Assembly (NCBI GenBank): GCA_963930775.1
Contig: OZ005693.1
Span: forward strand, 3,472,001-3,536,000
Origin: Cliona cf. orientalis
Taxonomy: Eukaryota > Porifera > Demospongiae > Clionaida > Clionaidae
Direction of reading: 5' to 3'
DNA: 64,000 nucleotides
Shown: positions 915 to 48,856 of the stretch, one piece after another
Layout: the number at the start of each line of letters is the position of its first letter
Numbering within the stretch: the stretch's first letter is position 1
Notes under the pieces: model-generated
The model's input: the letters and a program-made list of their open reading frames with translations, nothing else
Told to the model about the DNA's origin: nothing
Databases searched by the model: none
Translations under genes and position numbers: made by a program

Positions 915-3115
915 TTATTGTTGAGAGTAATATCTCTCAGCAAAGATCTGCTCATTTGGCAACACATCTTCTCTATTTCTGTTCTTGTAAACTCTTCTCA
1001 GAATATAGAGTATGATGCCATTCAATATGAAAAACACTATGACCAGCAATAAGTACCAAAATCTGCAATTGATTATCCCAACTGTTCTCCAAATTGATAG
1101 ATTCATCGTAAATGGTAGAGTGATTGCTACCCCAACCAGTGTGAACAAGATAACACTGCCATAGCCTGCTCCAAATATCAGTCCTCTCATAGAGTATAGG
1201 GAGTTTGGGCACAGATAAACTCAACTCCACCCAAACCAATACATGAGATCGAATTTAAGAAGCTTTGTAGAGCCATCCATCTGATGTCAAAATTGGAGCT
1301 AAGAATACCATGATCTTCATCTAAGAATATGCACTGAATAGTATAGCATTATGGTGTCGTGATTGTGCTATATAATTGTGTCGAGCTATTAGCACGTATG
1401 ATGCAAGCAGCATCATTCTTACTAATTGCAGTATGGCACCAAATGAAAATGTCCAAAAGCACTGTACCCACAAGAAGTATTTGTATAGCACGGGACGCAC
1501 AATAAACTCATACAGTGGTAATAGCACAATTACACTATAAAATGGCACTTGAGTGTATAAGGAATTTAAGTAGCACTGGAGAGTTGGCGTATCAATCTTT
1601 GTTAAGGCTGCAGTGAGGTTATCTCTTAAATTGTTCACCACAAATACAGCACTTAGCATTGCATAGCCAAAGAAGACAAGCATGACTAGCCATAGGAATA
1701 TTTTGGCATCTTCCACCTGCTCTGTTGTGAATGGCCCTCCATACTTGTGCTTACCCAGGTCAGACAGGAATGGAGCTCATCCTCACAGTAGGTGAAGGCA
1801 CTCCGACACCTTGGGTGCTTGTTCTTGATTGCATATTTGATCATAGTAATAAATTTGAAAGGGATTTGAGTGATAGTTTCCTTGATTAATATGTTATCTA
1901 GAGTAAATGACAGACTCAATACTATAGCAAGGCTGGCTGTAGCTACCAATTGCCAGGTTATATCATAATAGTCCTTTTGTAAGCAAGATGTTGCCAGCTC
2001 AATGGCCATTCCACCACTGAAGAAGCTCCACACATACCAGCTTATGAATGTTTGAATCTCTTCAGTTGAAGCATCATGAAGCTGATCAATACCAAATTGG
2101 ATGATGTTGGCTTGACAACCTCCATATCCAATGGCAGCTATTGCTTGAAGTACCGTGTTTATGCTAATAGAACGCAAGCAAAAAAATTAATTTCAAATCT
2201 GGTTTGCGCACTATTAGAGTCAAAATAATTCCAGGAAGTGAATTTTCTTGCGTTAATTAGATGTTGCGTTGTAATAGAACGATCAGCATAGCTTTGAGCG
2301 ACGACGAATAGTGGCTATCGATGGTATCGTACCTGTGCCCCTGGTCCCGATCATCACGAGGGTAGTCTGAGAAAGGCCTTCTGACAGCCGTGCCGCATGG
2401 TTAGCGATCGTGCTGATTGCAGTGCAGTTCCAACTAAGGTCAGTCTCGAGTGTAGTTTAGTACCCTCACGAACGACGAACGACACTTGCGATTTGGCTAA
2501 CAACGAGTCCGAGAGACAGAGCGAGGCTTCCAGAACGGTTCATTACTAAGCGGGTGTGGTTTAACCGTGCAGCACGCGGTTTGAGCATGCGCAATAGCTT
2601 CACCTTAGCACTATTGCGCTAATTGGATTCATAGAAAATAATTACAGACAGTCGCTTCCGTTCTAATAGAATACAAAAAATTCCTGGAATTGAATTTTCT
2701 TGCGGTAATTGGATCATGCGTTCTATTAGCATAAACACGGTAAATGATCTATTATGCACCTCTTATTCATAATTCCGTAGCCATCCACCAATTGTGCTAC
2801 CACTGAGCTTGTGTTCAGCATTGTGCCAATCCACATGATCCATATGCTCCAGCGTATCACACAATAGCGTCCAAGATAGACATCAGCCAGCCACCCGGCA
2901 ATTGGCAGAGTGACACCTACTGTTATGTAGACCTGCTTATTATGATTCGTGTGCACCATAATGTAGTAAAACAGACTCATGATCAGAAAGTTCCATACCA
3001 GCACTAACAGGGCACTTTTATTCTTAAGCTTCCTTACGTGTAGTTTGTAAGTAGATTTGCAGCATCCACAAAGTTGTCTGTTGATGATTATTCTGCTGTC
3101 TAGAATATCATCCAA
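915..3115 (-). pseudogene. POT1: SLC15/POT-like transporter pseudogene, subfamily 1
   Basis: Read on the minus strand, pieces cover the whole family protein: an N-terminal part with RKLKNKSALLVLVWNF and GWLADVYLGRY (3115-2746), a middle part with QANIIQFGIDQL and the central loop (2177-1741), a helix 7-9 part (1716-1321) and a C-terminal part from YSMRGLIFG to the tail RNREDVLPNEQIFAERYY (1210-915). The pieces lie in different frames and a 588 bp MITE sits inside the coding sequence. POT1 is the most diverged member: even the central loop, near-identical elsewhere, has drifted. Not functional as it stands. Confidence 0.85.
2153..2740. mobile_element. 588 bp MITE with TA duplication inside POT1
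   Basis: Both ends carry a perfect 24 bp inverted repeat beginning CCGTGTTTATGCTAATAGAA. TA flanks both sides (2151-2152 and 2741-2742), as left by Tc1/mariner-type transposases. Inside, a stretch of about 45 bp around TGAATTTTCTTGCG occurs twice in direct orientation (near 2240 and 2690). No transposase coding is visible, so it is non-autonomous. Removing it would join the two halves of the POT1 helix 3-4 region, which shows it came in after the gene. Confidence 0.9.
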
Positions 3116-3805: not shown

Positions 3806-5431
3806 TTAGTTCACTTGTGAGTAGTATCTCTCAGCGAAGATGTGTTCATTTGGCAGCACATCTTCTCTCTTTCTGTTCTTGTACCACCTTCCAGCAACAA
3901 GGAGTAGGCCACTGAATATGATCATGACAAGTAGCACTGAAAGTAGATACCAAAATTCACAGCTGATGATTCCAGTGGCCCAAGTTGATGGCTGCTCAGT
4001 GAGTGGCCAATAAATGCCATACCCAATCATCATAAATACAAATATACTACCACACCCAGTACCAATGATTAATCCTCTCATGGAGTATGGGGTTTGAGAT
4101 GCAAGAAAATCAATGCCACTAATGCTGAGCACAGTCAGTGAGATTATATCTAGAAGTTGCACAATAGCAATCCAGTGACCATTAAAACTGGAACTTAGAG
4201 CTCCTCGATCATATCTGAAGATGCACTCTGGTGTCGTTTGATTATGGTATTCAGCGTAGGTTTTTCTGGCTATCAAATCAAATACTATGATGATCATAAC
4301 TCTTACTATTTGTATTATTACCACTGATATAAACTTTTTTTGAAGTTTTATTTCTGGAACGCACTTTTGTGTAGTGGGATAAATGATCAATTCATACAGA
4401 GGTATGGCTAGTGCTGCTGCACAGAATCCGATTGTAGTTGTCAGGAATCTCTCCTTGTAACGTTCTGATATAGTTAGTTGTGTGTGTGTAAGAACGTGTG
4501 TCAGTTGCTCTATAGGTCTATGTATAAGGTGATTAACACTCACTAGCACACTTACAAGAGCAATCATAACTAGCAGTCGTAGAAATGTTTTGACATCTTC
4601 CACCTGCTCTGTTGTGAACGGTCCTCCATATTTACTCTTACCAAAGTCAATACGAGAAGGAAGCTCATCTTCACAGTAGGTGAAGGCACTTCTGCATCGA
4701 GGATGCTTGTTCTTGATGGCATACCTAATCACATTGTAGATCAATTTAAATGGATTTTGTGTCACAGGTTCCTTTACTAGACATGAACTGAAGATGAAAG
4801 ATGAGCTGATCACTATTGTAAGGCTTATGCAAGTTACTAGTTGTTCCACAATGTGATTATTATTATCCACACATGTATGAGTTATTTGAAAAAAAGCTCG
4901 GCTACTGACATATGTCCATACATACCAACGTATAAAAGCAGTAATCTCAGTTGTTGAAGCATCTTGGAGCTGGTCTAGTCCAAACTGTATAATGTTGGCC
5001 TGATATCCTCCAAAGCCTATGGCCACGATGACAAACATTGCAACTGAAATCTTTTGAAAGATTTTGTTCTCGTCATTGACCAACAGAGATACAACAGAGC
5101 TGACTGTAGCCAGGATGGAGGCAGCCCACATGATCCACATGCTCCAGTGTATCACTTTGTAGCGTCCAAAGCGAATATCAGCCAGCCACCCAGCAAAGGG
5201 TAGAGTGAAGCCCAAAGCGACTGTACCTATGCTTGCTCCCCCAGGGATTTGCACATATGCTATAAGATATTCAGATGCACTTACCATGAAGAAATTCCAT
5301 ACGAGTATTACAATCGCTCCTTTGTTTTTTAGTTTTCTAATCTGACAAGATGAATTATGGCATGATAGTCTATGATGTACCTCTTTATGAGAACTGTTCT
5401 CAGAAATAACTTCATTGAATTCATTTGCCAT
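3806..5431 (-). CDS. POT2: SLC15/POT-like transporter, intact, subfamily 1
   Basis: A 541-residue single-exon membrane protein of the proton-coupled oligopeptide transporter family (MFS fold), closest in pattern to the SLC15A3/A4 peptide-histidine transporters. Hydrophobic helices run from about residue 38 to 515. Family marks: GWLADIRFGRY at 81-91, GYQANIIQFGLDQL at 142-155, a charged cytoplasmic loop at 241-281, SQTPYSMRG at 445-453, and a conserved tail RKREDVLPNEHIFAERYY at 520-537. Helix 1 (GAIVILVWNFF) lacks the family ExxER proton motif, so ordinary peptide/proton cotransport is doubtful. The first ATG in frame is used; an intronless gene of normal family length. Substrate and membrane are unknown. 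N-glycosylation sequons (NQT at 397) lie in the last third. Confidence 0.88.
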   Translation of the reverse strand: MANEFNEVISENSSHKEVHHRLSCHNSSCQIRKLKNKGAIVILVWNFFMVSASEYLIAYVQIPGGASIGTVALGFTLPFAGWLADIRFGRYKVIHWSMWIMWAASILATVSSVVSLLVNDENKIFQKISVAMFVIVAIGFGGYQANIIQFGLDQLQDASTTEITAFIRWYVWTYVSSRAFFQITHTCVDNNNHIVEQLVTCISLTIVISSSFIFSSCLVKEPVTQNPFKLIYNVIRYAIKNKHPRCRSAFTYCEDELPSRIDFGKSKYGGPFTTEQVEDVKTFLRLLVMIALVSVLVSVNHLIHRPIEQLTHVLTHTQLTISERYKERFLTTTIGFCAAALAIPLYELIIYPTTQKCVPEIKLQKKFISVVIIQIVRVMIIIVFDLIARKTYAEYHNQTTPECIFRYDRGALSSSFNGHWIAIVQLLDIISLTVLSISGIDFLASQTPYSMRGLIIGTGCGSIFVFMMIGYGIYWPLTEQPSTWATGIISCEFWYLLSVLLVMIIFSGLLLVAGRWYKNRKREDVLPNEHIFAERYYSQVN

Positions 5432-6449
5432 TTTTTACATGATGTTTCTCCGTATCTTGGTTTCTCTTGGCTATTGCTTTCAGTAGGACATTTGCAATGA
5501 AAATGTTGTGGTCACTGATGAGTATTGAGAATTGCTGCAGCTCTTAGTGTGCTTGAATGCAGACTTTAGTATACATGGTGCCATTCATTGTACAGTTTTG
5601 GGACATGTTTACTCCTTGTCTTATTCCATTTAGTTTTAGAATTTGTCATTGTACCATTTCATTCGATTTCATGTTTAGAAATTAATACACTTATCAAGAT
5701 TTAATGGAATAGTCCATTGTTTTAATAGCCTGCTCAGCATTTGTACACCTTGCAGGTGACTGAGAGCCACACTAGGTAGCATTCTTAAATGTACTGTAGC
5801 TATGTAACCATCTGCACAACACACAAACGAAGACTCAATTGTATATTGAATAGAATCTCATTGATTTTTAATCTCTGCTACTGAGTCACATACCTTCGCT
5901 CAGTTAATATTTTCTCTAGTAATAGGAATCATAAATCCACAAAGTTATTCATTATCATGCAAAGTGTAAAATATGTACATGTATGTAATGCTTTTATTAA
6001 TTTTCTTGTTAGCCGAGTAGTAATACATGTATGTGGTTCTTTGACTGTAGCTGATCATTGTCTTCTATGGCCCATTAAATATATAGAATGGAGTTTACAC
6101 CAGTTTGGTGCCAGCATAAATTTAATGGAGTTATTTTGTGTGGTGGAATGGACACTATTGCAATAATGCCTGGATATTGCATGACGTGGGAAAATGTAAT
6201 CCTGAATGCTGTTGTCCTTAATTAATTGTATTCTTTTGCATCAAAAATCTGATGCTTGTCACCATCCGATGATAGCATTGTCAATTCTCGTGTAATCATC
6301 CCCACTAGTAGCTATATCTGGACCAGAGCTGACTTGTAAAGTATAGACCCATTGTAGGCGGTGCATTGAATCAGATGACTATAGGCTTGCTACATTTTCA
6401 GATGGTATCACTTTTACTGACTATTCTCATAGGATGAATTATAATGTGC
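5432..6449. other. Upstream of POT2, no gene
   Basis: AT-rich DNA with no convincing gene or transposon end. Any POT2 promoter should lie in its first few hundred bases (minus strand), but no TATA box or other site stands out. Confidence 0.5.
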
Positions 6450-9094: not shown

Positions 9095-10665
9095 TTAGTT
9101 CACTTGTGAGTAGTATCTCTCAGCAAAGAAGTGTTCATTTGGTAGCACATCTTCTCTCTTTCTGTTCTTGTACCACCTTCCAGCAATTAGGAGTAGGACA
9201 CTGAATATGATCATGACAAGTAGTACTGAAAGTAGGTACCAAAATTCACAGCTGATGATTCCAGTGGCCCAAGTTGATGGCTGCTCAGTGAGCGGCCAGT
9301 AGATACCATACCCAATCATCATAAATACGAATAATACTACTATACGCAGTACCAATTATCAGTCCTCTCATGGAGTATGGGGTTTGAGATGCAAGAAAAT
9401 CAATGCCACTAATGCCGAGCACAGTCGGTGAGATGATATCTAAAAGTTGCACAATAGCAATCCAGTGACTGTTAAAACTGGAACTCAGAGCTCCTTGATC
9501 ATATCTGAAGATACACTCTAAGGTTGTTTGATTATTGTGTTCAGCGTAGGTTTTCCTGGCTATCAAATCAAATGCTATGATGATGATAAGTCTTATTATT
9601 TGCATTATTACACCTGATAGAAATTTTTGGTATATTTTTGTTTCTGGTGTGCACTTTTGTATAGTGGGATAAACGATCAATTCATACAGAGGTATGGCTA
9701 GTGCTGCTGCACAGAATCCGATTGTAGTTGTTAGAAATCTCTCCTTGTAACATTTTGGTATAGTGGATTGTGTACGTTTAAGAACATGTATCAGTTACTC
9801 AAGTGGTCTATATGTGAGAAGCATATCGCTGACTAGCACACTTACAAGAGCAACCATAAGTAGCAGTCGTAGAAATGTTTTGACATCTTCCACCTGCTCT
9901 GTTGTGAATGGTCCTCCATATTTACTCTTACCAAAGTCAATACGAGAAGGAAGCTCATCTTCACAGTAGGTGAAGGCACTTCTACATCTTGGGTGCTTCT
10001 GCTTGATGGCATACCTAATCACTTTGTAGATCAGTTTGAATGGATTTTGTGTCATAGGTTCCTTTACTAGACATGAGCTGAAGATGAAAGATGAACTGAT
10101 CACTATTGTAAGGCTTATGCAAGTTACTAGTTGTTCCACGATGTGATTATTATTGTATGAGTAGTTTGAAAAACAGCACGGCTACTGACAACTGTCCATG
10201 CATACCAACGTATGAAAGCAGTAATCTCAGTCGTTGAAGCATCTTGGAGCTGGTCTAGTCCAAACTGGATGATGTTGGCCTGATATCCTCCAAAGCCTAT
10301 GGCCACGATGACAAACATTGCAACTGAAATTTTTTGAAAGATTTTGTTGTCGTCATTGACCAACAGAGATACAACAGAGCTGACTGTAGCCAGCATTGAG
10401 GCAATCCACATGACCCACATGCTCCAGTGTATCACCTTGTAGCGTCCAAAGCGTATATCAGCCAGCCACCCAGCAAAGGGTAGAGTGAAACCCAAAGCAA
10501 CTGTACCAACGCTTGCTCCCCCAGGGATTTTCACATATGCCATGAGATATTCAGATACGCTTATCATGAAGAAATTCCAAACAAGTATTATGATCGCTCC
10601 TTTATTCTTTAGTTTTCTAATCTGATAAGATAAAGTACAACGTGATAGTCTATGATGTACCTCTC
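9095..10665 (-). pseudogene. POT3: recent pseudogene copy of POT2
   Basis: Closely similar to POT2 along almost its full length (FGLDQLQDASTTEITAFIRWY, central loop, SQTPYSMRG, tail RYYSQVN). The frame is broken near 9340 (extra base), by a TGA near 9800 and by a deletion near 10140 after MEQLVT, so no full protein can be made. The 5' end stops matching POT2 near 10665, where the POT2-type start is missing and replaced by a rearranged sequence. Downstream DNA matches that of POT2, so this is a block duplication followed by decay. Confidence 0.9.
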
Positions 10666-12118: not shown

Positions 12119-13840
12119 TCAATGAGAGTAGTATCTTTCGGTGAAGAAGTGTTCATTGGGCAATAAATCTTCTCTTTTCCGCATCTTGTATCGCTTTGCC
12201 ATCCATGCTAAAATTACGAAGAGAGAGAGATACGCAACTATTATTAGCAGTGCATACCAGAATTCACAGCTGATGGTCCCAGCACCCAAACTTGAGGTAT
12301 TTTCTTTGTGGAGCACCATTATTATTACTATCATAATGGTGATTGAACAAATTGAAATCAAGATATACTGCGCTCCCATTATTATACCCTTCATAGAGTA
12401 AGGAGCTTGAGAAAAAATGAATTCTATTAAGCCTGTAAGGAGGAAGGTTAGTGAGATATAATGAAGATATTCTGGAATGGCTAGCCATCGGTCATCTAGA
12501 CTTTGGCTTAGCAGGCCTCTATGTTAATTCATGAAATATACACTGGATAGTTGCATTGTATTCATCTTTTTTAAGTATTTATATCGGGAGATGACATCAA
12601 AAGCAATCAGTGTGGCAACACGTACAATGTGAATGCTTATTCCTATCAAGATATTCCATAGACTCTTCATCCTTCTACAGCATACACAGTGTTGAAAGAA
12701 TGGATAAATGATAAATTCATGGAATATAATCAATATAAGCATGCCAAGATGTACACTGTTGGTCAGGCTTGTTTCTGCGTAGCATTCAGCCATTGATCCA
12801 GTGAAATGCTTAACAATATATCGTTTTTCTAGCGAAATTTGCAAGTAAGTTGCTGCAACAAGTACACTTGCAATCACACCAAAGATCGATATTAGAGGGA
12901 GAAGTCTCAGAAGTGTTTTGACATCTTCCACCTGCTCTGTTGTGAATGGTCCTCCATATTTACTCTTACCAAAGTCAATACGAGACGGAAGCTCATCTTC
13001 ACAGTAGGTGAAGGCACTTCTGCATCGAGGATGCTTTGTAACAATAGCAAATTTGATGACCTTATAGATCAATTTAAAAGAATATTTTAGTGGTGGCTCC
13101 TTTATTAATGATTTACTGAAACAAATTATTAGTAGTAGTGCTAGTGTAAGACACACACAAAGTAATAACAAAAGATAGAGCTTATTTTGTGTATTAAGGC
13201 ACAAAAAGTTAAACTCTACAACAAATCCAGTAGTGATTAGAGAGTTCACATACCAAACTATGAAGGATTTTATTTCAGTTGTTGAAGCATCGTGGAGCTG
13301 ATCTAGTCCAAACTGAATGATATTGGATTGAAATACTCCAAGTCCAATGCTCATAATACACAATAGTATGAATTGAACAGTATCATATTCATTGTGGTGG
13401 TTATAATTCACGTGGAGTTGTCTAACAACCACATTTACTGTTATTGCAATCATAAGGAGCCACATTATCCAAACACTGCAATGCATCACTTTGTACCTTC
13501 CAATGAAGGCATCGGTCAGCCATCCTGCTATGGCTGTGGTAATGGTAAATGGTACAAGCCAAACATGAAATATTGGGTGGCGAACTGCTATGGATACAAG
13601 AAAATATATTATACTGGTGACTAGATAACTGATTACCAGTACCAGCACTGCTCCTTTGTTCTTAACTCTTCTTATCTGATGGCATTTTATATTGCAGCAG
13701 GCACTTAACTTATCTTTCCTAGTGATTCGCTGGTTGTTGAAACTCGCTAATGAAATACTTTTCGAAGAACTCAATAACTTGGTATTCTCCTCTGTCATAA
13801 TTTTAAGCAGTTTTAGCTCTTGGAACATGTTATTATCCAA
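12119..13840 (-). pseudogene. POT4: subfamily 2 transporter, C-terminal frame lost
   Basis: Open from the start through residue 438, carrying RRVKNKGAVLVLVISYL, GWLTDAFIGRY, QSNIIQFGLDQLHDASTTEIKSF and the central loop. The conserved start is the ATG at 13798 (MTEENT); an upstream ATG at 13840 adds 14 residues. Near 12560 the frame shifts by one base and a stop follows just before the conserved GLLSQSL segment. The last third (SQAPYSMKG, tail RKREDLLPNEHFFTERYY) continues in another frame to 12119. Only two lesions, so inactivation looks recent. A truncated eight-helix product is possible but would lack half the transport fold. Confidence 0.85.
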
Positions 13841-14002
13841 TTGCTAGCTAGCCTTCTTACATTTTTACTTATAGATTCTGAAGCATGTTATTTTGAGATA
13901 TGTTGGTTTGCTTTCAGTTTGCCTGCAATTAAGCATGTAAACATCAAGAAGTTTTGTAATCTATTACAGGGTAACACTTTGTTCCAGCTAAATAGTATTT
14001 AA

Positions 14003-14742
14003 GGTACCATTAAATTGCGTGGGCGTGAGGTGGGGATATGACACCTAAACCACATCAAAGTCATTAGTGAGGTGCATGTTGTGTAACCACGCCCTTTTAA
14101 TTGCACAGGTCTCAGGGGTGTGGCTGCTAGAGCCGGAAGTGTTCATTTAATATCCTCCATGGACCGGAAGCCGAGCGGAAGGGAGGGGCCAGGCCACGCC
14201 CAAAACAGCCCCACCCTGTTCTCCAAGGACCACCATTCTCAATCAAGTGCCTACTAACCACCGGATGTCCACCGGAAGCCCACAATCAATCCCAATTAAA
14301 ACACACAGCTTCCTCAAGGCCAAAACACACACAAACACTTGGAGGCCGTTCTGCCACACCGCCCACGCAAGAGCTCACCTCATTTCCTGTGTGGGCGGAG
14401 TAACAACACGTCATCGCAACCACATCCGCTTCAAACCATCGTCAGCTTCCGTCCAGCCGTACGGTCCCCTCCATCGCACCGGCGTACAGTGCCTCATTAA
14501 CAGACACGGCCTCACCTTTGACCTCCTGCCACGCCCCCAAAGCCTCCTCGCGGGTTCAAAGGTCACCACCGCTTCCGGGACACGCCCACCTATCGCCGAG
14601 GCCAAGTCCCAGGCGCCGATATCCAAGCACTGGCCCGTGAAGCCACGCCCAATCGGAAGCAATAAAACCTGCATTAACGCACACGCACACACTCCACACA
14701 GTGCCAGGAACACGCCCACATGCTTAATTAGGCCTAATAAGG

Positions 14743-14776
<34 letters not shown>

Positions 14777-15019
14777 TCGTTGCGGTTAATAGTTAAGAAA
14801 GAATGCTTTGATCTTGCTTTGAAGTGGGCAATTACCGGTGTTTTCTTCAGGGGCCACTTCCGGTCGCTAATTACACGCGCATAATCATCCCTGGCCGATT
14901 CTAGACACGCCCACCTTCGACCAAAAGCACTCGTATGGCCACTTCGGCCACGCCCCTTCACGATTCGCTAATTGAATTAGCCAATCCTGACGCTCACGCC
15001 CACGCACTTTAATGCTACC
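14003..15019. mobile_element. TTAA-flanked 1,017 bp MITE, copy 1
   Basis: Ends GGTACCATTAAATTGCGTGG and (right end, inverted) GGTAGCATTAAAGTGCGTGG, about 28 bases long, with TTAA on both sides (13999-14002, 15020-15023), the signature of piggyBac-type insertion. The inside is unlike the host: richer in G+C, with many CACGCCC motifs and a run of over 30 T near 14742. No transposase was recognised; long open stretches come from base composition. Copy 2 at 28981-29991 is nearly identical, so both moved recently. Confidence 0.93.
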
Positions 15020-15059
15020 TTAAAGCATCTTTAGATACAGTTAACACGTACTGGAAGGG

Positions 15060-18000
15060 GCCACTCCCCGTGGTAGGCGGTAACAAGGTGGAGTCAGTCA
15101 AGGACTGCTGCGCATGCGTGGCACCATTACTGCCTCGTGCTACTACTGAGCGAGTTACTGTGCAGTGAGTGAATTTTTGAGTCTTCTTCTACGCTTCCTA
15201 CCTGCTCATCAGCTTGTAAACATGCCCAAACCCGAGTCTACGCGTCGCTCAACCACCACTGCACGGCGAGCGGCGGGGCCTTCCACAGCAACTGTTCGGC
15301 GATCGGCCTGATCTTCCACGGCCGCGAGTACCGCTGCTGCTGGCTCCACTTCTTCCCAGCAGCTACCTCCTTCGTCCTCTACCCCTGCCGACCCTCAGCT
15401 ATCATCTGCCGGGAGTCCTTATCGGAACTCCTGGAGCTTATCCGAACCCGAGCTGCAGGCACAGCAATTAGCCGGCCAATCGGCCACCAACGCCACAACC
15501 GCTGACGCCACTGTGACGCCCAACACCGCGCGCCCCTGGAAGTACGCCACTGTAATCCGGAGCCAGGCCAACAGCAAGTTATATGCTGTATTTGTTTCTG
15601 TACATACTTATTATGTGGGTAGAGCTGGCACGCATGCACGGCCCCGCCCTGTAACGGCCCCCCTTTTGCGCACCTCAACCCCCTCATGCACATGCACATA
15701 CACACACCCTATCATGCAATTTCATTGCTGCATAAATTTGTATTGGTTGTATCATTGCTGCGTGCATTTACTCCCCATTTTGCTTTTGCTGTGTGTGTGG
15801 CTGTTCGCATTTTACCTGGCTCGGCTGATTATGACCCCAGGCAATTTCATTGCTGCATAAATGGTTGTATCATTGCTGCTTGCATTTACTCTCCATTTCG
15901 CTTTTTCTGTGTGTGTGGCTGTTCGCATTTTACCTTGCTGCATAAATTTGTATTGGTTGTGTCATTGCTGCGTGCATTTACTCCCCATTTTGCTTTTGCT
16001 GTGTGTGTGGCTGTTCGCATTTTACCTAGCTTGGTTGACTATGACCCCATTGCTGCATAAATTTATATTGGTTGTATCATTGCTGCGTGCGTTTACTCCC
16101 CATCAAGTCTGCTTTTGCTGTGTGTGTGGCTGTTCGCATTTTACCTGGCTTGGTTGATTATGACCCCATGCAACTTCATTGCTACATAGATTTGTATTGG
16201 TTGTATCATTGCTGCGTGCATTTACTCCCATCAAGTTTGCTTTGAATTTGCTGTGTGTGTGGCTGTTCGCATTTTACCTGGCTTGGTTGATTATGACCCC
16301 GTGCAACTTCATTGCTGCATAGATTTGTATTGGTTGTATCATTGCTGCATGCATTTACTCCCATCAAGTTTGCTTTTGCTGTGTGTGTGGCTGTTCGCAT
16401 TTTACCTGGCTTGGTTGATTATGACCCCGTGCAACTTCATTGCTGCATAGATTTGTATTGGTTGTATCATTGCTGCATGCATTTACTCCCATCAAGTTTG
16501 CTTTTGCTGTGTGTGTGGCTGTTCGCATTTTACCTGGCTTGGTTGATTATGACCCCATGCAACTTCATTGCTACATAGATTTGTATTGGTTGTATCATTG
16601 CTGCGTGCATTTACTCCCATCAAGTTTGCTTTGAATTTGCTGTGTGTGTGGCTGTTCGCATTTTACCTGGCTTGGTTGATTATGACCCCGTGCAACTTCA
16701 TTCCTGCATAGATTTGTATTGGTTGTATCATTGCTGCGTGCATTTACTCCCATCAAGTTTGCTTTAATTTTGCGGTGCGAGTGGCTGTTCGCATTTTACC
16801 TGGCTTGGTTGATTATGACCCCATGCAATTGACTTCTGAATCATTGCTGCATAGATTATTATTGGTTGTATCATTGCTGCGTGCATTTGCTCCCATCAAG
16901 TTTGCTTTTGCTGTGTGTGTGGCTGTTCGCATTTTACCTGGCTTGGTTGATTATGACCCCATTCAATTTCATTGCTGCATAGATTTGTATTGGTTGTATC
17001 ATTGCTGCATGCATTTACTCCCCATCAAGTTTGCTTTTGCTGTGTGTGTGGCTGTTCGCATTTTACCTGGCTTGGTTGATTATGACCCCGTGCAACTTCA
17101 TTGCTGCATAGATTTGTATTGGTTGTATCATTGTTGTGTGCATTTACTCCTATCAAGTTTGCTTTTGCTGTGTGAGTGGCTGTTCACATTTTACCTGGCT
17201 TGGTTGATTATGACCCCATGCAATTTCATTGCTGCATAGATTTGTATTAATTGTATCATTGCTGCGCATTCTACCTGGCTTGGTTGATTATGACCCCACG
17301 CAATTTCTTTGCTACATGAATTTGTATTGGTCGTATCATTGCTGCTCGCATTTACTCCCCATTTTGCTTTTGCTGTGTGTGTGGCTGTTCGCATTCGACA
17401 AAAGCATGCTTTGAGCAGCATTTTGCTTGGGAGTTTTCGGGTTCATGCGATCAGGGGAGTTCACTTGCTCCCCCTCAGGCAACCCTAGCGACTGCACATT
17501 GACAGTATCTGATGTGCAGGACTAACCATCAAATGCTAAGCATCCTTCTCAGGAAAAGTAAAACGGATCCAGTTGGCACTGGTACTTATCTGTACATTGG
17601 ACGGACTGGCACTGTAATATGCCCTGTGTCAGCGCTGTTGGCTTACCTGGCGATCCGTGCTCCGAGCCCAGGCCCACTCCTCATATTCCAGGATGGTACT
17701 CCACTTAGCAGGCAGCAACTGGTGGCTCACCTACATAGCACATTAGCGGGAATAGGCGTTGATGTTGCTAACTACTCGGGCCACAGCTTTAGGATTGGTG
17801 CAGCTTCTATATACTGCAGCAAGTGCTGGTTTCATTTTGTTCTATTATGATACTATGTTAATACTTGATTCATATTGAGGTACTCAGTAAGTCATATTTT
17901 ATTGGTTAGTACTCTTATGTCATCTGGGAGTGTAGTGTATACTACACTTTGGGGATGTCGCTGACATACACTCCCAGTTCTATGCAAGCATAGCTGTATC

Positions 18001-18323
18001 TATATTATTGCCTTCAGGAATGCTCATGCAAACAGGTTCCTGTAAGCAGTACAATGTTATGTTGCTGGCTGGCAATGTGCTGAATATCAATAATATTGTG
18101 TATTGGCTGTATTGGCTGTATTAGCTGCATTGGCTGTATTGTGGCTGCATTATTATTTGCTGGGGCCGTGCGGCCCCATGGCTGTTTGGCACTAATGGGG
18201 GAGTGGCTCCTGCAGTACTACCAACCACTCATTCCCCCTTATGGGGAAGCAGTAGAGTAATACATAAGACTTAGTGCATGGGGTGGCAGCTGCTATTGTT
18301 CAACCCTGTAATGAGTGTTAAGT
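15060..18323 (+). mobile_element. Tyrosine-recombinase element, second copy, broken
   Basis: Parts in order: a 5' leader; a coding start near 15223 with a Ser/Thr/Ala-rich N-terminal region; a minisatellite (15715-17395) where the middle of the element should be; a tyrosine-recombinase C-terminal portion (17395-17815) with RKSKTDP, GPLLIFQDG and the H-x-x-R motif GHSFRIGAA; and a 3' tail matching 310-882. DIRS/Ngaro or Crypton type. It is broken, with several breaks and most of the internal region missing. The left limit is uncertain because it abuts the TTAA MITE. Confidence 0.65.
15715..17395. repeat. 128 bp minisatellite, about 13-14 units
   Basis: The unit runs from TTGCTGCATAGATTTGTATT through GTGTGTGGCTGTTCGCATTT to GGTTGATTATGACCCC. 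Clean units recur at 16312, 16440 and 16568, so the period is 128; outer units are shorter or diverged, as expected of unequal exchange with homogenised centre units. Some units share a GAAT insert (near 16244 and 16632), suggesting a higher-order pattern. Long open stretches here simply follow from the repeat lacking stops. Confidence 0.95.
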
Positions 18324-19735: not shown

Positions 19736-21423
19736 TCAATAAGAGTAGTATCTTTCAGCAAAGAAGTGCTCATTGGGCAGTAAATCTTCTCTTTTCCGCA
19801 TCTTGTATCGCTTTACCATCCATGCTAAAAGTATGAAGAGGGAGAGGTATGCAACTAGTATTAGCAGTGCATACCAAAATTCACAGCTGATAGCCCCAGT
19901 ACCCAAACTCAAGAGATCCTTTTTGTAGACCACCACTGCAATTATTACAATCATGGGGATTGAACAAATTGAAATCATGGTATACTGTGCTCCTATTATT
20001 GCACCCTTCATGGAGTAAGGGGCTTGAGAACAGATGAACTCTATTAACCCTGTAAGGAGGAAGGTGAGTGAGATGAAATGAAGATATCGAGGAATGACCA
20101 TCCACTGATTGTTTAGACTTTGGCTTAGAAGGCCACGACTTTCATAAAATATACACTGGATAGTTGCATTGTATTCGCTTTTTAAATAGTTTTGTCGGGA
20201 GATGACATCAAAAGCAATTAGTGTAGTGATACGCATAATTTGAACAATTATTCCCATCAAAATTTTCCACAAACTTGTTATTTTTCTACAGCATATACAG
20301 CGTTGAAAGAGTGGATAAATGACAAACTCATGAAATATAATCAACAGGAGTATACCAAGATTAACACTGTTGGTTAGGCTTGTTTCCTCGTAACATTTAG
20401 CAACAACTCCTCTGGAACCTAGTACATTCAATTCAGTGAATCGGTTATATTGTTTTTCTAGGTAGTAGTACAAAGTACTTGCTGCAACAAGTACACTTGC
20501 AATCGCACCAACGATTGATATTAGAGGGAGAAGTCTCAGAAGTGTTTTGACATCTTCCACCTGCTCTGTTGTGAATGGTCCTCCATATTTGCTCTTACCA
20601 AAGTCAATACGAGACGGAAGCTCATCTTCACAGTAGGTGAAGGCGCTTCTGCATCGAAGATGCTTTGTAACAACAGCAAATTTGATGATCTTATATATCA
20701 ATTTAAACGAAAATTTAGGTGGTGGCTCCTTTATTAACGATTTATTGAAACCAATGATCAGTAGTAGTGCTAGTGTAAGACACATACAAAGTATTAATGA
20801 AAGATAGAGCTTATTTTGTGTAGTGAGGCACAAAAAATTAAACTCTACAACAAATCCAGTAGTGATTAGAGAGTTGACATACCAAACTATGAAGGACTTT
20901 ATTTCAGTTGTAGAAGCATCGTGGAGCTGATCTAGTCCAAACTGAATGATATTGGATTGAAATGCTCCAATCCCAATGCTTATCAGGCAGAATAGTGAAG
21001 TTTGAACAATACGCTTATCGTAATGGTGATAAATCTTGTTTAATTGTCCAACAATAGCACTTACTGTTATTGCAATCGTAAGGAGCCATGTTATCCAAAT
21101 ACTGCAATGAATCACTTTGTACCTTCCAATGAAAGCATCAGTCAGCCATCCTGCTATGGCTGTGGTAATGGTAAAAGGAATAAGCGAAACCTGATATACT
21201 CGCTCGTAAGTTGCAGAAGTTAAAAGGAAATAGAAGATGCTTGTGACTAGATAACTAATAGCCAGTATCAATACAGCTCCTTTGTTCTTAACCCTTCTTA
21301 TCTGATAGTGTTTTACATTGCAGCAGGCACTTAACTTCTCTAACTAGTGATTTCCTGGTTATTGAAACTTGCTAATGGAGTATTTTTTGAAGAACCTGAT
21401 GAGTTGGTATTGTCCTCTGTCAT
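19736..21423 (-). pseudogene. POT5: nearly intact subfamily 2 transporter, N-terminus out of frame
   Basis: From residue VLILAISYL in helix 1 (21271) to the tail AERYYSY the frame is open for 511 codons with all family marks: GWLTDAFIGRY, QSNIIQFGLDQL, central loop, SQAPYSMKG, RKREDLLPNEHFF. The conserved start MTEDNTNSS (ATG at 21423) and the linker SFNNQEITS are present, but about one base is missing near 21340, so they are out of frame with the rest. The open part begins at a TTG, not an ATG. Probably a young pseudogene; a sequencing error at this spot would make it whole. Confidence 0.8.
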
Positions 21424-26095: not shown

Positions 26096-27798
26096 TCAAT
26101 AAGAATAGTATCTTTCAGCAAAGAAGTGCTCATTGGGAAGTAAATCTTCTCTTTTCCGCATCTTGTATCGCTTTACCATCCATGCTAAAATTACGAAGAG
26201 GGAGAGATATGCAACTATTATTAGCAATGCGTACCAAAATTCACAGCTGATGGTATGTCCCAGTACCCAAACTCGAGAGATCCTTTTTGTAGAATACCAC
26301 TATAGCAATTATTACAACCAAGGGGATTGAACAAATTGAAATAAAGGTATACTGTGCTCCTATTATGACACCCTTCATGGAGTACGGAGCTTGAGAACAA
26401 ATGAATTCTGTTGCGCCTGTGAGGAGGAAGGTTAGTGAGATATAATGGAGATATTGAGGAATGGCCAACCATCGATAGTTTAGACTTTGGCTTAGAAGGC
26501 CACGACTTTCATGAAATATACACTGGATAGTTGCATTGTATTCACTTTTTAAATAGTTGTGTCGGGAGATGACATCAACAGCAATCAGTGTGGTGACATA
26601 CATAATTTGAATGATTATATATACCCATCAAAATTTTCCATAAACTCTTTATTCTTCCATAGCATACACAGCGATAAAAGAGTGGATAAATGATAAATTC
26701 GTGAAACACAATGAGCAGGAGTATACCAAGACTAACACTGTTAGTCAGGCTTATTTCTGTGTAACATTTAGCAATAATTCCTCTATAACCTAGTTCAGGA
26801 ACAACAGTGAATTGGTTATATTGTTTTTCTAGGTAATTGGACAAAACATTTGCTGCAACAAGTACACTTGCAATCACACCTAAGATCGATATTAGAGGGA
26901 GAAGTCTTAGACATCTTCCACCTGCTCTGTTGTGAATGGTCCTCCATATTTACTCTTACCAAAGTCATTACGAGAAGGAAGCTCATCTTCACAGTAGGTG
27001 AAGGCACTTCTGCATCGAGGATATTTTGTAACAATAGCAAATTTGATGACCTTGTAGATCAATTTAAAAGAAGATTTAGGTGGTGGCTCCTTTATTAACG
27101 ATTTGTTGAAATAAATTAACAGTAGCAGTGCTAGTGTAAGACACACACAAAGTATTAACGAAATATACAGCCTATTTTGTGTAGTGCATGAGGCACAAAA
27201 AATTGAACTCTACAACAAATCCAGTGGTGATTAGAGAGTTCACATACCAAACTATGAAGGATTTATTTCAGTTGTTGAAGCATCATGGAGCTGATCTAGT
27301 CCAAACTGAATGATATTAGATTGAAATGCTCCAAGCCCTATGTTTATCAGGCAGAATAGTGAAGTTTGAACAATAATATTATGATTATCGTAATGGTGAT
27401 AAATCTCATTTAGTTGTCCTACAACAGCACTTGTTGCTATTGCAATCATAAGGAGCCACATTATCCAAATGCTACAGCCAATTACTTGGTACCTTCCAAT
27501 GAAGGCATCAGTCAGCCATCCTGCCAATTGAGGCTGTGGTAATACCAAAATGGAATTAGCCAAACCCGATATATGGATTGGTCAACTGCAGAGATAAGGA
27601 AATAGAAGATGCCTATGACTAGATAACTCATTACCAGTACCAATACAGCTCCTTTGTTCTTGACTCTTCTTATCTGGTAGCGTTTTACATTGCAGCACGC
27701 ACTTATAATGTGACTTTTCTACTACATTCCTTGTTACTGAAACTTGCTAATGTAATGCTTTTTGAAGAATTTGATGAATTAATCTTCTCCTCCGTCAT
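26096..27798 (-). pseudogene. POT7: full-length but multiply broken subfamily 2 copy
   Basis: Aligns from MTEEKINSSNSSKS (ATG at 27798) to the stop at 26096. The frame changes at least five times: after the start linker near 27700, near 27520 and 27250, between 26880 and 26930 (codons for VKTLLRLL lost after the central loop), near 26590 and near 26250. Family marks are still readable piecewise (GWLTDAFIGRY, QSNIIQFGLDQL, central loop with one Ile to Asn change, SQAPYSMKG). Paralogous to POT11 in the duplicated block. Confidence 0.88.
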
Positions 27799-28885: not shown

Positions 28886-28980
28886 CCATTTGAGCCTTGT
28901 GAAAATGCAATTGGCCATAATGGTAATGGTTATCACCAATCTAGTCCATAATCCCTGCAATCAAGAGTCCACAGTATTAA

Positions 28981-29991
28981 GGTACCATTAAATTGCGTGG
29001 GCGTGAGGTGGGGGATATGACACCTAAACCACATCAAAGTCATTAGTGAGGTGCATGCTTTGTAACCACGCCCTTTTAATTGCACAGGTCTCAGGGGTGT
29101 GGCTGCTAGAGCCGGAAGTGTTCATTTAATATCCTCCATGGACCGGAAGCCGAGCCGGAAGGGAGGGGCCAGGCCACGCCCAAAACAGCCCCACCCTGTT
29201 CCCCAAGGACCACCATTCTCAATCAAGTGCCTACTAACCACCGGATGTCCACCGGAAGCCCACAATCAATCCCAATTAAAACACACAGCTTCCTCAAGGC
29301 CAAAACACACACAAACACTTGGAGGCCGTTCTGCCACACCGCCCACGCAAGAGCTCACCTCATTTCCTGTGTGGGCGGGGCAACAACACGTCATCGCAAC
29401 CACATCCGCTTCAAACCATCGTCAGCTTCCGTCCAGCCGTGCAGGCCCCTCGATCGCACCGCCGTACAGTGCCTCATTAACAGACATGGCCTCACCTTTG
29501 ACCTCCTGCCACGCCCCCAAAGCCTCCTCGCGGGGTTCAAAGGTCACCACCGCTTCCGGGACACGCCCACCTATCGCCGAGGCCAAGTCCCAGGCGCCGA
29601 TGTCCAAGCACTGGCCCGTGAAGCCACGCCCAATCGGAAGCAATAAAACCTGCATTAACGCACACGCACACACTCCACACAGTGCCAGGAACACGCCCAC
29701 ATGCTTAATTAGGCCTATTTAGCTTTTTTTTTTTTTTTTTTTTTTTTGTCGTTGCGGTTAATAGTTAAGCAAGAATGCTTTGATCTTGCTTTGATGTGGG
29801 CAATTACCGGCCTTTTCTTCAGGGGCCACTTCCGGTCGCTAATTACACGCGCATAATCATCCCTGGCCGATTCTGGACACGCCCACCTTCGACCAAAAGC
29901 ACTCGTATGGCCTCTTCGGCCACGCCCCTTCACGATTCGCTAATTGAATTAGCCATTCCTGACGCTCACGCCCACGCAATTAAATGGTACC
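28981..29991. mobile_element. TTAA-flanked 1,011 bp MITE, copy 2
   Basis: Both ends begin GGTACCATTTAAT/GGTACCATTAAATT and extend through GCGTGGGCGTGAG; TTAA on both sides (28977-28980, 29992-29995). Same interior as 14003-15019 with few differences; the T run near 29727 is shorter by more than ten bases. This copy has the better right end (GGTACC retained). Confidence 0.93.
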
Positions 29992-29995
29992 TTAA

Positions 29996-30339
29996 GTATC
30001 TCTGTAAATATTGATAATATACTAGTATGCAAATTAGAGTTGCTCATAGATATTGTAGCAATGTACTATTATGTATTTCCACACAATTATTATATGGGTG
30101 GTATTTTCTTGAAGAACTGCAATTATGCTGATATGTTCCATGCAGTCTAAAGGAAAACACGACAGTATAACTAGTAAACTGTTGATCAATCTGAGAAAGA
30201 TGACACAAGTATCAATGATCATTATTATTGTAAATAGTACCTCTTAGCAAAGACTAATTGGTACATACATGCATACACTAATTCACACATGTGTGTACAA
30301 ATAAAACTGTGATCTAATTTCACATGTATATGTGCTATG
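29996..30339. other. 3' flank of POT8
   Basis: From about 30035 this flank is nearly identical to 48568-48856 downstream of POT13. It holds a decayed tail motif (AATAGTACCTCTTAGCAAAGAC at 30234) about 100 bases past the stop. Confidence 0.75.
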
Positions 30340-32049
30340 TCAATAAGAATAGTATCTTTCAGCAAAGAAATGTTCATTGGGCAATAAATCTTCTCTTTTC
30401 CGCATCTTATATCGCTTTACCATCCATGCTAAAATTACAAAGAGGGAGAGACATGCAACTATTATTAGCAGTGCATACCAAAATTCACAGCCGATAATCC
30501 CAGTACCCAAACTCGAGAGATCCTTTTTGTAGAACACCACTGCAGCAATTATTACAACCAAGGGGATTATACAAACTGAAATCAAGGTAAACTGTGCTCC
30601 TATTATGACACCCTTCATGGAATAAGGAGCTTGAGAACAAATAAACTCTGTTGCGCCTGTGAGGAGAAAGGTTAGTGAGATAAAATGGAGATATTGAGGA
30701 ATGGCCAACCACCGATAATTTAGACTTTGGCTTAGAAGGCCATGATTTTCATGAAATTTACACTGGATAGTTGCATTGTATTCACTTTTTAAATAGTTGT
30801 GTCGGGAGATGACATCAAAAGCAATCAGTGTGGTGACACGCATAATTTGAAAGATTATTCCCATCAAAATTTTCCATAAACTCTTTATTCTTCCACAGCA
30901 TATACAGCGATAAAAGAGTGGGTAAATAATAAATTCATGAAACACAATCAACAGGAGAATACCAAGATTAACACTGTTGGTCAGGCTTGTTTCTGCATAA
31001 CATTTAGCAACGATTTCTCTGGAACCTAGTTCATGAAGAACATTCAATTCAGTGAATCGGTTGTATTGTTTATCCAGGTGAATGTACAGAAAGTTTGCTG
31101 CAGCAAGTGCACTGGCAATCACACCAAGAATCAATATTAGGGGAAGAAGTCTCAGAAGTGTTTTGACATCTTCCACCTGCTCTGTTGTGAATGGTCCTCC
31201 ATATTTACTCTTACCAAAGTCAATGCGAGAAGGAAGCTCATCTTCACAGTAGGTGAAGGCACTTCTGCATCGAGGATGCTTTGTAACAATAGCAAATTTG
31301 ATGACCTTATAGATCAATTTAAAAGAATATTTAGGTGGTGGCTCCTTTATTAATGATTTATTAAAACTAATTATCAGTAATAGTGCTAGTGTTAAACACA
31401 CACAAAGTAGCAATGAAAGATAGAGCTTATTTTGTGTAGTGAGGCACGAAAAATTAAACTCTACAACAAATCCAGTAGTGATTAGGGAGTTCACATACCA
31501 GACTATGAAGGACTTTATTTCAGTTGTTGAAGCATCGTGGAGCTGATCTAGTCCAAACTGAATGATATTGGATTGAAATGCTCCAAGCCCAATGCTTATC
31601 AGGCAAAATAGTGAAGTTTGAACAATATGCTTATCGTAATAGTGATAAATCTTGTTTAGTTGTCCAATAGCAGCACTTACTGTTATTGCAATCATAAGGA
31701 GCCACATTATCCAAATACTGCAACGAATCACTTTGTACCTTCCAATGAAGGCATCAGTTAGCCATCCTGCTACGGCTGTGGTAATACCAAATGGAATAAC
31801 CCAAACCAGATGTACTGGTTCGTGAACTGCAGAGGTTACAAGGAAATAGAAGATGCTTGTGACTAGATAGCTGATTGCCAGTACCAGTAATGCTCCTTTG
31901 TTCTTAACCCTTCTTATCTGATAGCGTTCTACATAACAGCATATATTTAACTTGTCCTTCCTAGTGGTTCCCTGGTTGTTGAAACTTGCTAACGAAATTC
32001 TTTTTGAAGAATTTGATGAACATATCTTCTTTTCTGTCATGATTTTCAA
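30340..32049 (-). CDS. POT8: SLC15/POT-like transporter, intact, subfamily 2
   Basis: A 569-residue single-exon protein. Order: Ser-rich cytoplasmic N-terminus (SSNSSKRISLASFNNQ), YQIRRVKNKGALLVLAISYL into helix 1, GWLTDAFIGRY, QSNIIQFGLDQLHDAS, the central loop KHPRCRSAFTYCEDELP.., a Cys-rich turn (YRCICCGR) before helix 9, SQAPYSMKG and tail RKREDLLPNEHFFAERYYSY. No ExxER in helix 1. The more conserved start is the ATG at 32040 (MTEKK), three codons inside. From about residue 150 to the end it is almost identical to POT13, while the N-terminal part differs clearly, so it is a mosaic. Transport function is inferred from the family only. Confidence 0.88.
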   Translation of the reverse strand: MKIMTEKKICSSNSSKRISLASFNNQGTTRKDKLNICCYVERYQIRRVKNKGALLVLAISYLVTSIFYFLVTSAVHEPVHLVWVIPFGITTAVAGWLTDAFIGRYKVIRCSIWIMWLLMIAITVSAAIGQLNKIYHYYDKHIVQTSLFCLISIGLGAFQSNIIQFGLDQLHDASTTEIKSFIVWYVNSLITTGFVVEFNFSCLTTQNKLYLSLLLCVCLTLALLLIISFNKSLIKEPPPKYSFKLIYKVIKFAIVTKHPRCRSAFTYCEDELPSRIDFGKSKYGGPFTTEQVEDVKTLLRLLPLILILGVIASALAAANFLYIHLDKQYNRFTELNVLHELGSREIVAKCYAETSLTNSVNLGILLLIVFHEFIIYPLFYRCICCGRIKSLWKILMGIIFQIMRVTTLIAFDVISRHNYLKSEYNATIQCKFHENHGLLSQSLNYRWLAIPQYLHFISLTFLLTGATEFICSQAPYSMKGVIIGAQFTLISVCIIPLVVIIAAVVFYKKDLSSLGTGIIGCEFWYALLIIVACLSLFVILAWMVKRYKMRKREDLLPNEHFFAERYYSY

Positions 32050-32409
32050 CAGATATTGATAGCTCTTATTTGATAAATGTACAATGATTGTGAATTATTA
32101 GTCTTCACTCTTGATCTTGTTTATAGCTTATAAGTTATGCATTTTTATTAGGTGTGCAGGTTTTATTTATAGTTCGTCTGCAATTCAACACTGTAATATT
32201 ATCCAGTAGATTGTGAACAATAATATTATTGTTTTTTCTGTGTATAAACAAGCATGTGGGTGTAATGATTATGAAAGTAAAGTAGTGAAAATTATTATTC
32301 TCTCGTGAGTTATAGCATATTCTTTGTTTTTAGCTAATTTAAGCAAAGACTTAGTCAACAATTTCTAAGTTTCAGTACCATAAATTAGGGTTAAATTTAA
32401 TTCCATTCC

Positions 32410-41994: not shown

Positions 41995-43152
41995 CCTGGT
42001 GGTATTTTCTTGAAAAAGTACGATTATACTCATATTTTCAAATCCAAAAAGAAAACATTGACAGTATGAATAGTCAACTGTTGATCAATCTGAAAAAAAT
42101 AACACAAATATCAATGATCATTATTATTGTAAATAGTACCTCTTAGCAAAGACTAATTGGTACATGCATGCATACACTAATTCACACACCTGTGTACAAA
42201 TAAAATTGTGATCTAATTTCACATGTATATGTGCTATGTCAATAAGAATAGTATCTTTCAGCAAAGAAATGTTCATTGGGCAGTAAATCTTCTCTTTTCC
42301 GCATCTTATATCGCTTTACCATCCATGCTAAAATTACAAAGAGAGATAGACATGCAACTATTATTAGCAGTGCATATACCAAAATTCACAACCGATAATC
42401 CCAGTACCCAAACTCGAGAGATCCTTTTTGTAGAATACCACTGCAGCAATTATTACAACCAAGGGGATTATACAAACAGAAATCAAGGTAAACTGTGCTC
42501 CTATTATGACACCCTTCATGGAATAAGGAGCTTGAGAACAAATGAACTCTGTTTCGCCTGTGAGGAGAAAGGTTAGTGAGATAAAATGGAGATATTGAGG
42601 AATGGCCAACCACCGATAATTTAGACTTTGGCTTAGAAGGCCATGATTTTCATGAAATTTACACTGGATAGTTGCATTGTATTCACTTTTTAAATAGTTG
42701 TGTCGGGAGATGACATCAAAAGCAATCAGTGTGGTGACACGCATAGTTTGAAAGATTATTCCCATCAAAATTTTCCATAAACTCTTTATTCTTCCACAGC
42801 ATATACAGCCATAAAAGAGTGGGTAAATGATAAATTCGTGGAATACAATCAACAGCAGTATGAAACGCTCCAAGCCCAATGCTTATCAGGAAGAATAGTG
42901 AAGTTTGAACAATATACTTATCATAATAGCGATAAATCTTATTTAATTGTCCGACAACAGCATGCACTTACAGTTATTGCAATCATAACGAGCCACATTA
43001 TCCAAATACTGCAATGAATCACTTTGTACCTTCCAATGAAGGCATCAGTCAGATATCCTGCTATGGCTGTGGTAATTATATATACTACAACGAAAAATAT
43101 TTTTCAGAGCGACAATTTTCTTATATAGTCCGTGTCATTACATGAGGGCATG

Positions 43153-48567: not shown

Positions 48568-48856
48568 TATTGTAGCAATGTACTATTATGTATTTCCACA
48601 CAATTATTATATGGGTGGTATTTTCTTGAAGAACTGCAATTATGCTGATATGTTCCATGCAGTCTAAAGGAAAACACGACAGTATAACTAGTAAACTGTT
48701 GATCAATCTGAGAAAGATGACACAAGTATCAATGATCATTATTATTGTAAATAGTACCTCTTAGCAAAGACTAATTGGTACATACATGCATACACTAATT
48801 CACACATGTGTGTACAAATAAAACTGTGATCTAATTTCACATGTATATGTGCTATG
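48568..48856. other. 3' flank of POT13
   Basis: Nearly identical to 30035-30339. Carries the decayed tail motif AATAGTACCTCTTAGCAAAG at 48751. The left edge is the POT12 breakpoint. Confidence 0.8.

Follow-up and report, generated by a model that had tools for sequence, protein, structure and literature searches.

The closest described case to the locus reported here is regional gene conversion in clustered protocadherins, described for fugu and also reported for zebrafish and human (excerpts of PMC1852091 and PMC3966226). For RHCE and RHD, a model by Innan has conversion tolerated in one part and prevented where selection separates the copies (excerpt of PMC3966226), and in the copepod Tigriopus californicus patches of high divergence alternate with patches of low divergence between GOT1 paralogs, which has been attributed to ongoing conversion (excerpt of PMC3728101). 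As to scale, average tracts are mostly 200-300 bp long, and an efficient segment of ~200 bp has been suggested for yeast (excerpt of PMC3924818).

Here we describe a cluster of transporter genes of two subfamilies, A and B, that share one short coding block at the level of DNA. We read this block as the product of repeated interlocus gene conversion, in short tracts, between A and B in a same-strand tandem cluster, a reading to which we assign a probability of roughly 0.78.

Results

SLC15-like transporter genes clustered on one strand

Within the window, which is the whole 64-kb stretch of DNA analysed, SLC15-like transporter genes formed a tandem cluster on the minus strand in which subfamily A (POT1, 2, 3, 14, 15) and subfamily B (POT4, 5, 7, 8, 9, 12, 13) were interspersed, with ~40% protein identity between the two (POT8 was 41% identical to POT2 and 39% to POT14). 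The two copies searched, POT2 and POT8, had sequence matches to chains of SLC15A4 (E=3.6e-15 and E=6.8e-19, respectively) and of SLC15A3, such that they are alike in sequence to these members of the POT/PTR2 family, but distant from them. Among the three copies tested against Pfam PTR2 (POT2, POT8, POT14), POT2 and POT14 reached the gathering cut-off and POT8 gave no match at E 0.01, and an AlphaFold model of POT8 built from 5 sequences had a mean pLDDT of 36.6, which is too low to judge a twelve-helix MFS fold. The gene frames of four copies are located as follows.

3806-5434, minus strand: POT2 gene frame, SLC15-like, subfamily A
30340-32094, minus strand: POT8 gene frame, SLC15-like, subfamily B
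48857-50578, minus strand: POT13 gene frame, subfamily B
51663-53306, minus strand: POT14 gene frame, subfamily A

Beyond the transporter genes, we observed two ~1 kb segments of GC-rich DNA outside these genes (13994-15023 and 28973-29995, 96% identical), probably a repeat element, and a dispersed repeat (365-883 and 17831-18323, 91% identical) with a TGTATTGGC-type short tandem repeat in both copies. A tandem array of ~128-base units with a longer period of 389 occupies 15713-17395, and a 319-aa open frame at 37041-38000 reads like what we take to be part of a non-LTR reverse transcriptase. From this frame and the SLC15A4-like genes we judge the DNA to be eukaryotic, with an animal, perhaps a sponge, as a guess at its source.

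One coding block is shared by all full or near-full copies

An earlier note on this DNA, made from the letters alone, had claimed that a central coding block is nearly invariant between POT2 and POT8, whose genes otherwise diverge. A BLASTN search with 4587-4710 as query located this block in all 12 full or near-full copies, each in a minus-strand gene, and nowhere else in the window. It is the central linker, which in this transporter family is placed between TM6 and TM7, and in the alignment with POT2 the SLC15A4 motif GGPFTxExVEDVK meets its end. Its copies are the following.

1701-1822, minus strand: POT1 block (A), diverged, with a one-base deletion and changed silent sites
4586-4708, minus strand: POT2 block (A), the longest A-type tract, columns 272-312, with the N-terminal edge also B-like
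9877-9998, minus strand: POT3 block (A, broken frame), with a POT1-like N-terminal edge
12915-13036, minus strand: POT4 block (B, broken frame)
20544-20665, minus strand: POT5 block (B, long open frame)
26907-27022, minus strand: POT7 block (B, broken frame), with a 10-base deletion at the C-terminal end
31160-31281, minus strand: POT8 block (B, open frame)
36114-36235, minus strand: POT9 block (B, gene broken by a stop), the least different from the POT2 block
48175-48296, minus strand: POT12 block (B, broken frame)
49677-49798, minus strand: POT13 block (B, open frame), identical to the POT8 block
52447-52570, minus strand: POT14 block (A, open frame)
55051-55157, minus strand: POT15 block (A, frame in three pieces)

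One long open frame was present in five of these 12 copies (POT2, 5, 8, 13, 14), that of POT5 being shorter at the N-terminus than its matched stretch, and the other seven (POT1, 3, 4, 7, 9, 12, 15) were split by frameshifts or stops, assuming that the assembly is right. Eleven of the 12 shared a near-identical stretch of 105-123 bases, silent positions included. Ten copies were 95.2-99.2% identical to the POT2 block, with BLASTN mismatches of 1/122 in POT9, 2/122 in POT4, POT8, POT12 and POT13, 3/116 in POT7, 3/107 in POT15, 5/122 in POT3 and POT5, and 6/124 in POT14, and POT1 was 81% identical (22/123, with a one-base gap). These counts agree with the earlier note on the near-invariance of POT2 and POT8 (the POT8 block begins at 31160, three bases from where the note had placed it), on recurrence in POT3, 4, 5, 7, 9, 12, 13 and 14 (1-6 mismatches) and on POT1 as the clearly drifted copy. 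The note had further ascribed more change to POT15, but the core of the POT15 block carries two changed codons only, and most POT15 changes lie at the N-terminal edge.

Outside the block, the claimed divergence of POT2 and POT8 was borne out by DNA identities of 27-63% in 60-base windows, the exceptions being two windows overlapping the block, a window with FGLDQL (80%) and the last short window (74%). Both of the longest exact matches between A and B, at 108 bases, lay in the block (POT3 with POT9 and with POT12), and 105 bases of the POT14 block were identical to POT8 and POT13. Truncated members near 23.6-24.2, 40.1-40.7 and 42.2-43.1 kb showed no block by BLASTN and were left out of all counts. 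One of these, the truncated B copy POT11 (42242-43091), has POT8 residues ~99-177 joined directly to 379-584, which leaves out the block along with the rest of the central region; towards the C-terminus it matches POT8 at 98-100% identity.

The length of the block is near that of a short read, as might be expected had reads of similar copies been merged over it during assembly or consensus polishing. This artefact has a probability that we put close to nil, since the 64 kb contain no N at all, individual copies retain distinct variants inside the block, and a ~1.2 kb array of 128-base units was resolved in the assembly, which suggests that long reads were used.

Silent sites are homogenised in the block beyond protein constraint

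Across the 28 A-B pairs, degenerate codons for the same residue were identical at 918/957 positions in the core of the block and at 2080/4563 outside, with Fisher p between 6.5e-6 and 2.5e-11 in 28 of 28 pairs (which are not independent of one another). POT1, left out of these totals, gave 159/195 in the core and 446/1036 outside when compared with B. At third positions, A and B differed at 38/828 sites (4.6%) in the core versus 49-71% in the 11 other 42-codon segments (10 copies), and core dS in the four A-B pairs computed was 0-0.10 versus 2.0, 3.5 or undefined (saturated) outside. Silent divergence was far lower in the block than in its flanks, and the equality of the two that the earlier note had named as refuting its claim was not observed. 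The broken POT15 shared 29/30 to 33/34 core codons with the seven B genes (lowest 30/34) and 0.43-0.50 outside.

In a count that needs no tree, taken over columns in which no more than one copy departs from a conserved degenerate residue (POT1 left out), 29/35 core columns used one codon throughout versus 28/134 outside, which upholds the earlier claim that protein selection fails to explain the silent identity. Codon steps numbered 8 in the 35 core columns versus 187 in the other 134 (permutation p=1e-5, the lowest value attainable) on a hand-written tree that orders the B copies differently from the computed trees; the tree-free count agrees.

Protein selection acting together with codon bias might be thought to produce such identity, as the 41 encoded residues hardly vary among the 11 homogenised copies and human SLC15A4 keeps GGPFTxExVEDVK. 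Codon usage, however, predicts a same-codon rate of ~0.42 where the core gave 0.96, and several of the shared core codons are non-preferred ones, with family frequencies of 0.15-0.25. Conserved motifs elsewhere reached same-codon identities of only 0.47 (LPNEH) and 0.57 (FAERYYS), ISCEFWY at 0.89 being the exception, and because most other shared motifs lack such silent identity, protein selection is insufficient. The same-residue codon test contradicts protein constraint with codon bias as the cause, and we leave this explanation practically no weight.

Runs of identical same-residue codons located the signal along the gene. The longest run lay in the block in all six tested pairs of POT2, 3, 14 or 15 with a B copy, at 18-36 codons versus permuted mean maxima of 7.4-8.1, with one pair at p=5e-4 and the other five at the floor of 5e-5, which chance does not explain. 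The longest run between POT1 and POT8 was 10 codons (p=0.04). Among A copies, it fell in the block in only one of the four pairs tested without POT1, and since it lay outside in the other three, other parts of the A genes are possibly homogenised too. These A-A runs were found at columns 97-138 and 525-559 (POT2, POT3, POT14, POT15), with p values of 0.07 for POT2-POT14, 0.003 for POT3-POT14 and 0.006 for POT2-POT15.

Two further places showed raised silent identity between A and B. These were NIIQFGLDQL-DASTTEI (columns 176-193, ~4.93-5.0 kb in POT2; 0.73 and 0.61) and the exceptional motif ISCEFWY (columns 538-544, ~3.95-3.98 kb in POT2), with excess silent identities of 0.54 for NIIQFGLDQL, 0.36 for DASTTEI and 0.81 for ISCEFWY. 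They perhaps reflect weaker or older exchange.

GC3 was 0.33-0.42 in the block and 0.34-0.39 outside (11 copies), such that GC3 is not raised in the block of these copies, which we count against conversion. Raised GC3 served as a supportive sign for fugu; in our judgement, it is a sign of GC-biased repair and no requirement for conversion.

Excess silent identity and the length of shared protein runs

The block was also the longest run of agreement between the A and B consensus proteins (41 residues), the next being 10 residues. Excess silent identity by length of A/B-identical run was -0.10 for single residues, 0.11 for 2-3, 0.12 for 4-5, 0.39 for 6-10 and 0.86 for the run of 41. Corrected for degeneracy, this trend had rho 0.31 (p=0.003) over all 93 runs and 0.29 (p=0.005) without the block, and was not significant among runs of at least 2 residues (rho 0.21, p=0.20); before correction, rho was 0.69 over the 18 runs of at least 4. 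The evidence that the length of shared DNA controls exchange is suggestive, with one 7-residue motif that already reaches an excess of 0.81 counting against length dependence.

Ends of the block and codon variants

On the codon alignment, the tract begins at column 272 in POT2 or at ~277-278 in POT3, POT14 and POT15 and runs to column 312, the codon preceding an A/B-specific Phe/Leu, and its boundary to the diverged flanks is sharp in window identities, codon alignment and codon runs. The C-terminal end falls at the same codon in all four homogenised A copies (POT2, 3, 14, 15), whereas the N-terminal ends are unequal, as seen in POT2 versus POT3. These two copies are 90% identical, being sisters upstream of the block (90% support) and neighbours that form no clade downstream. 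Columns 273-276 read CAT CCT CGA TGC in POT2, as in B, and CAC CCA AGA TGT, the POT1-like form, in POT3.

Inside the core, the arginine at column 290 (before IDFGK) is written CGC in POT14, in its neighbour POT13 and in POT8, CGT in POT2, POT3 and the remaining five B copies, and TGT stands there in POT1 and POT15. Among open-frame copies, silent core changes occur in POT2 (CCG) and in POT5, which has two AGC codons and, in common with POT4, a CCG. Core replacements are confined to the broken copies POT7, POT15 and POT1, in small numbers, and replacements at the N-terminal edge are present in the open-frame POT5 and POT14.

Tree and triplet tests

In trees of 42-codon segments from 10 copies (POT1 and POT12 left out), the branch separating A from B was missing in the block and measured 0.67-1.35 in all 11 other segments. 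The core rejected both flank topologies (AU p=0.0015; 0.007 without POT1), and the full block with 12 copies gave AU 0.007-0.009 against the flank trees (0.018 without POT1, where KH/SH p was 0.051-0.057). With six taxa, the five open-frame genes and POT1, neither flank tree was rejected by the block. As five of seven control segments also rejected at least one flank tree (AU 0.05), topological incongruence is not specific to the block. Trees that keep A and B separate were worse by 0.3 log units for the full block (AU p=0.32), by 2.8 for columns 273-312 (AU 0.037, KH 0.16) and by 5-6 for the core (AU p=0.03, KH/SH 0.075-0.08), such that the topology tests place A-B mixing inside the block at the borderline.

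In triplet tests, the strongest B-like patch of POT2 was at columns 273-276, with p=0.010 for one B parent and 0.012 for another (uncorrected, from 12 triplets run). For POT14 and POT15, in three triplets of an A sister and a B parent (p=0.10, 6e-4 and 0.24), the best patch was outside the block. Triplets with POT1 as the A reference gave B-like patches over the block in POT2 and POT3, to which we give little weight because the decay of POT1 itself adds to the B-like signal.

These data also bear on whether a single old copying from B into the ancestor of POT2, 3, 14 and 15, followed by little change and no further exchange, could have sufficed. One such event would give four A tracts that stop at the same C-terminal codon, as these do, and would be compatible with the low cost of A-B separation over the full block. 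It would, however, demand that silent sites change eight to nine times more slowly in the block than outside it, because dS is 0.10 in the core versus 0.91 (POT2-POT14) and 0.76 (POT14-POT15) outside, and the N-terminal edge of POT2 and the CGC of POT14 would require extra events or coincidences. We see only a slim chance for this scenario.

RNA folding and a possible function of the nucleic acid

The earlier note had offered two explanations for the block, namely local gene conversion or a job as DNA or RNA. Under the second, selection would keep the silent sites of the block for an extra function, such as that of an RNA hairpin, of a source or target of small RNAs, or of a site for regulation or recombination. 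The sense RNA of the POT2 block was more stable than dinucleotide shuffles (z -2.5), and compared with synonymous recodings z was -2.9 in POT2, -2.2 in POT14, -1.7 in POT9 and -1.2 in POT8. In window scans the lowest z of POT2 (-2.6) and of POT8 (-2.5) came from windows covering the block, although other POT2 and POT8 windows were similar (-2.3, -2.1) and the antisense strand of the block gave little signal (z -1.0). The diverged POT1 block forms a similar long stem (-35.1 kcal/mol), but its stability is unexceptional, with 14% of versions carrying 20 random silent changes being as stable. Translation of four copies showed that two alternative frames, another sense frame and an antisense one, also stay open over the block; at ~42 codons we judge such frames to be unremarkable.

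Further observations speak against such a function. Rfam had 0 matches at the gathering threshold in the window, and the silent core changes in POT2 and POT5 occur in copies with open frames. The blocks of the broken POT3, POT9, POT12 and POT15 are still uniform though selection should have lapsed there, unless these copies were recently broken, and selection on silent sites does not predict the subfamily-type difference between POT2 and POT3 at one edge. Of the two explanations, then, local gene conversion is favoured, with a modest RNA-fold signal speaking for a DNA or RNA job and the silent changes in open-frame copies against it, and we consider a nucleotide-level function unlikely. Somewhat less likely again is a double use of the block, in which it would encode the linker and also serve a shared RNA or DNA function that keeps 11 copies near-identical at silent sites; were this so, it could, for example, form a hairpin yielding small RNAs that silence the whole cluster, broken copies included.

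Discussion

Recurrent gene conversion between A and B is the reading that we prefer, with events that probably repeated and that would have run mostly from B to A. It is supported by the silent homogenisation with its sharp ends, by the differing N-terminal ends of POT2 and POT3, by the column-290 codon common to A and B copies, by the uniform blocks of broken copies and by the silent changes in open ones. Against it stand the borderline separation tests, the incongruence of control segments, the best patches of POT14 and POT15 outside the block, the common C-terminal end, the unraised GC3 and the RNA folding of the block windows. A break in or near the block may have been repaired from another copy. 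Because 41 consecutive linker residues are the same in both subfamilies, pairing between A and B would be possible only over the block, as the sole long near-identical DNA that they have in common, and the block would also be the sole long stretch where copying is cost-free. Tracts that spread into the flanks would be stopped by mismatch, or purged by selection on subfamily-specific helices. Every such event would erase silent changes and preserve the pairing substrate, such that the state would maintain itself.

That exchange or recent duplication occurs in this cluster follows from POT8 and POT13, which are 96% identical over 2 kb, flanking DNA included (30037-32072 and 48555-50585). Over the first 60 alignment columns, identity between the two is only 67-79%, and near-identity sets in from ~column 160. 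The pair represents either a recent duplication or a long conversion with a sharp end.

We looked for relatives in other collections, where an exact-pattern scan of viral contigs gave 0 and alignment scans of prokaryotic and viral contig collections gave 47 and 87 pattern matches, none of them confirmed. In the open-access literature, among the matches listed, we recognised no paper as describing this cluster. The locus offers a compact case of apparent conversion across subfamilies whose silent sites are mostly saturated elsewhere, and the block could test whether a motif conserved in protein keeps itself competent for recombination and so uniform in DNA. In such a family, trees, dS estimates and read mapping across the linker would mislead.

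Compared with known systems, the transporter cluster shares with the protocadherins, as these are presented in excerpts of PMC1852091 and PMC3966226, the arrangement of tandem paralogs in which one coding part is homogenised at silent sites, has a discrete boundary and sits in a diverged remainder, and the fugu authors likewise argue from silent sites (excerpt of PMC1852091). It differs in that protocadherin conversion homogenises C-terminal ectodomains, within subclusters and with raised GC3 (same excerpts of PMC1852091 and PMC3966226), whereas the transporter block is 105-123 bp long, crosses subfamilies that are ~40% identical in protein, and has no raised GC3. Its tract is shorter than the ~200 bp efficient segment of yeast (excerpt of PMC3924818), a point that we count against conversion. 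The GOT1 case, going by the portion of that source used here, concerns invertebrate paralogs as ours does, but rests on population data where ours rests on one assembly. Set beside RHCE/RHD as modelled in the excerpted source, the transporters are kept apart over nearly the whole gene and share the short linker alone. Regional conversion is the described form closest to this locus, where it would take a short form with sharp ends that crosses subfamilies.
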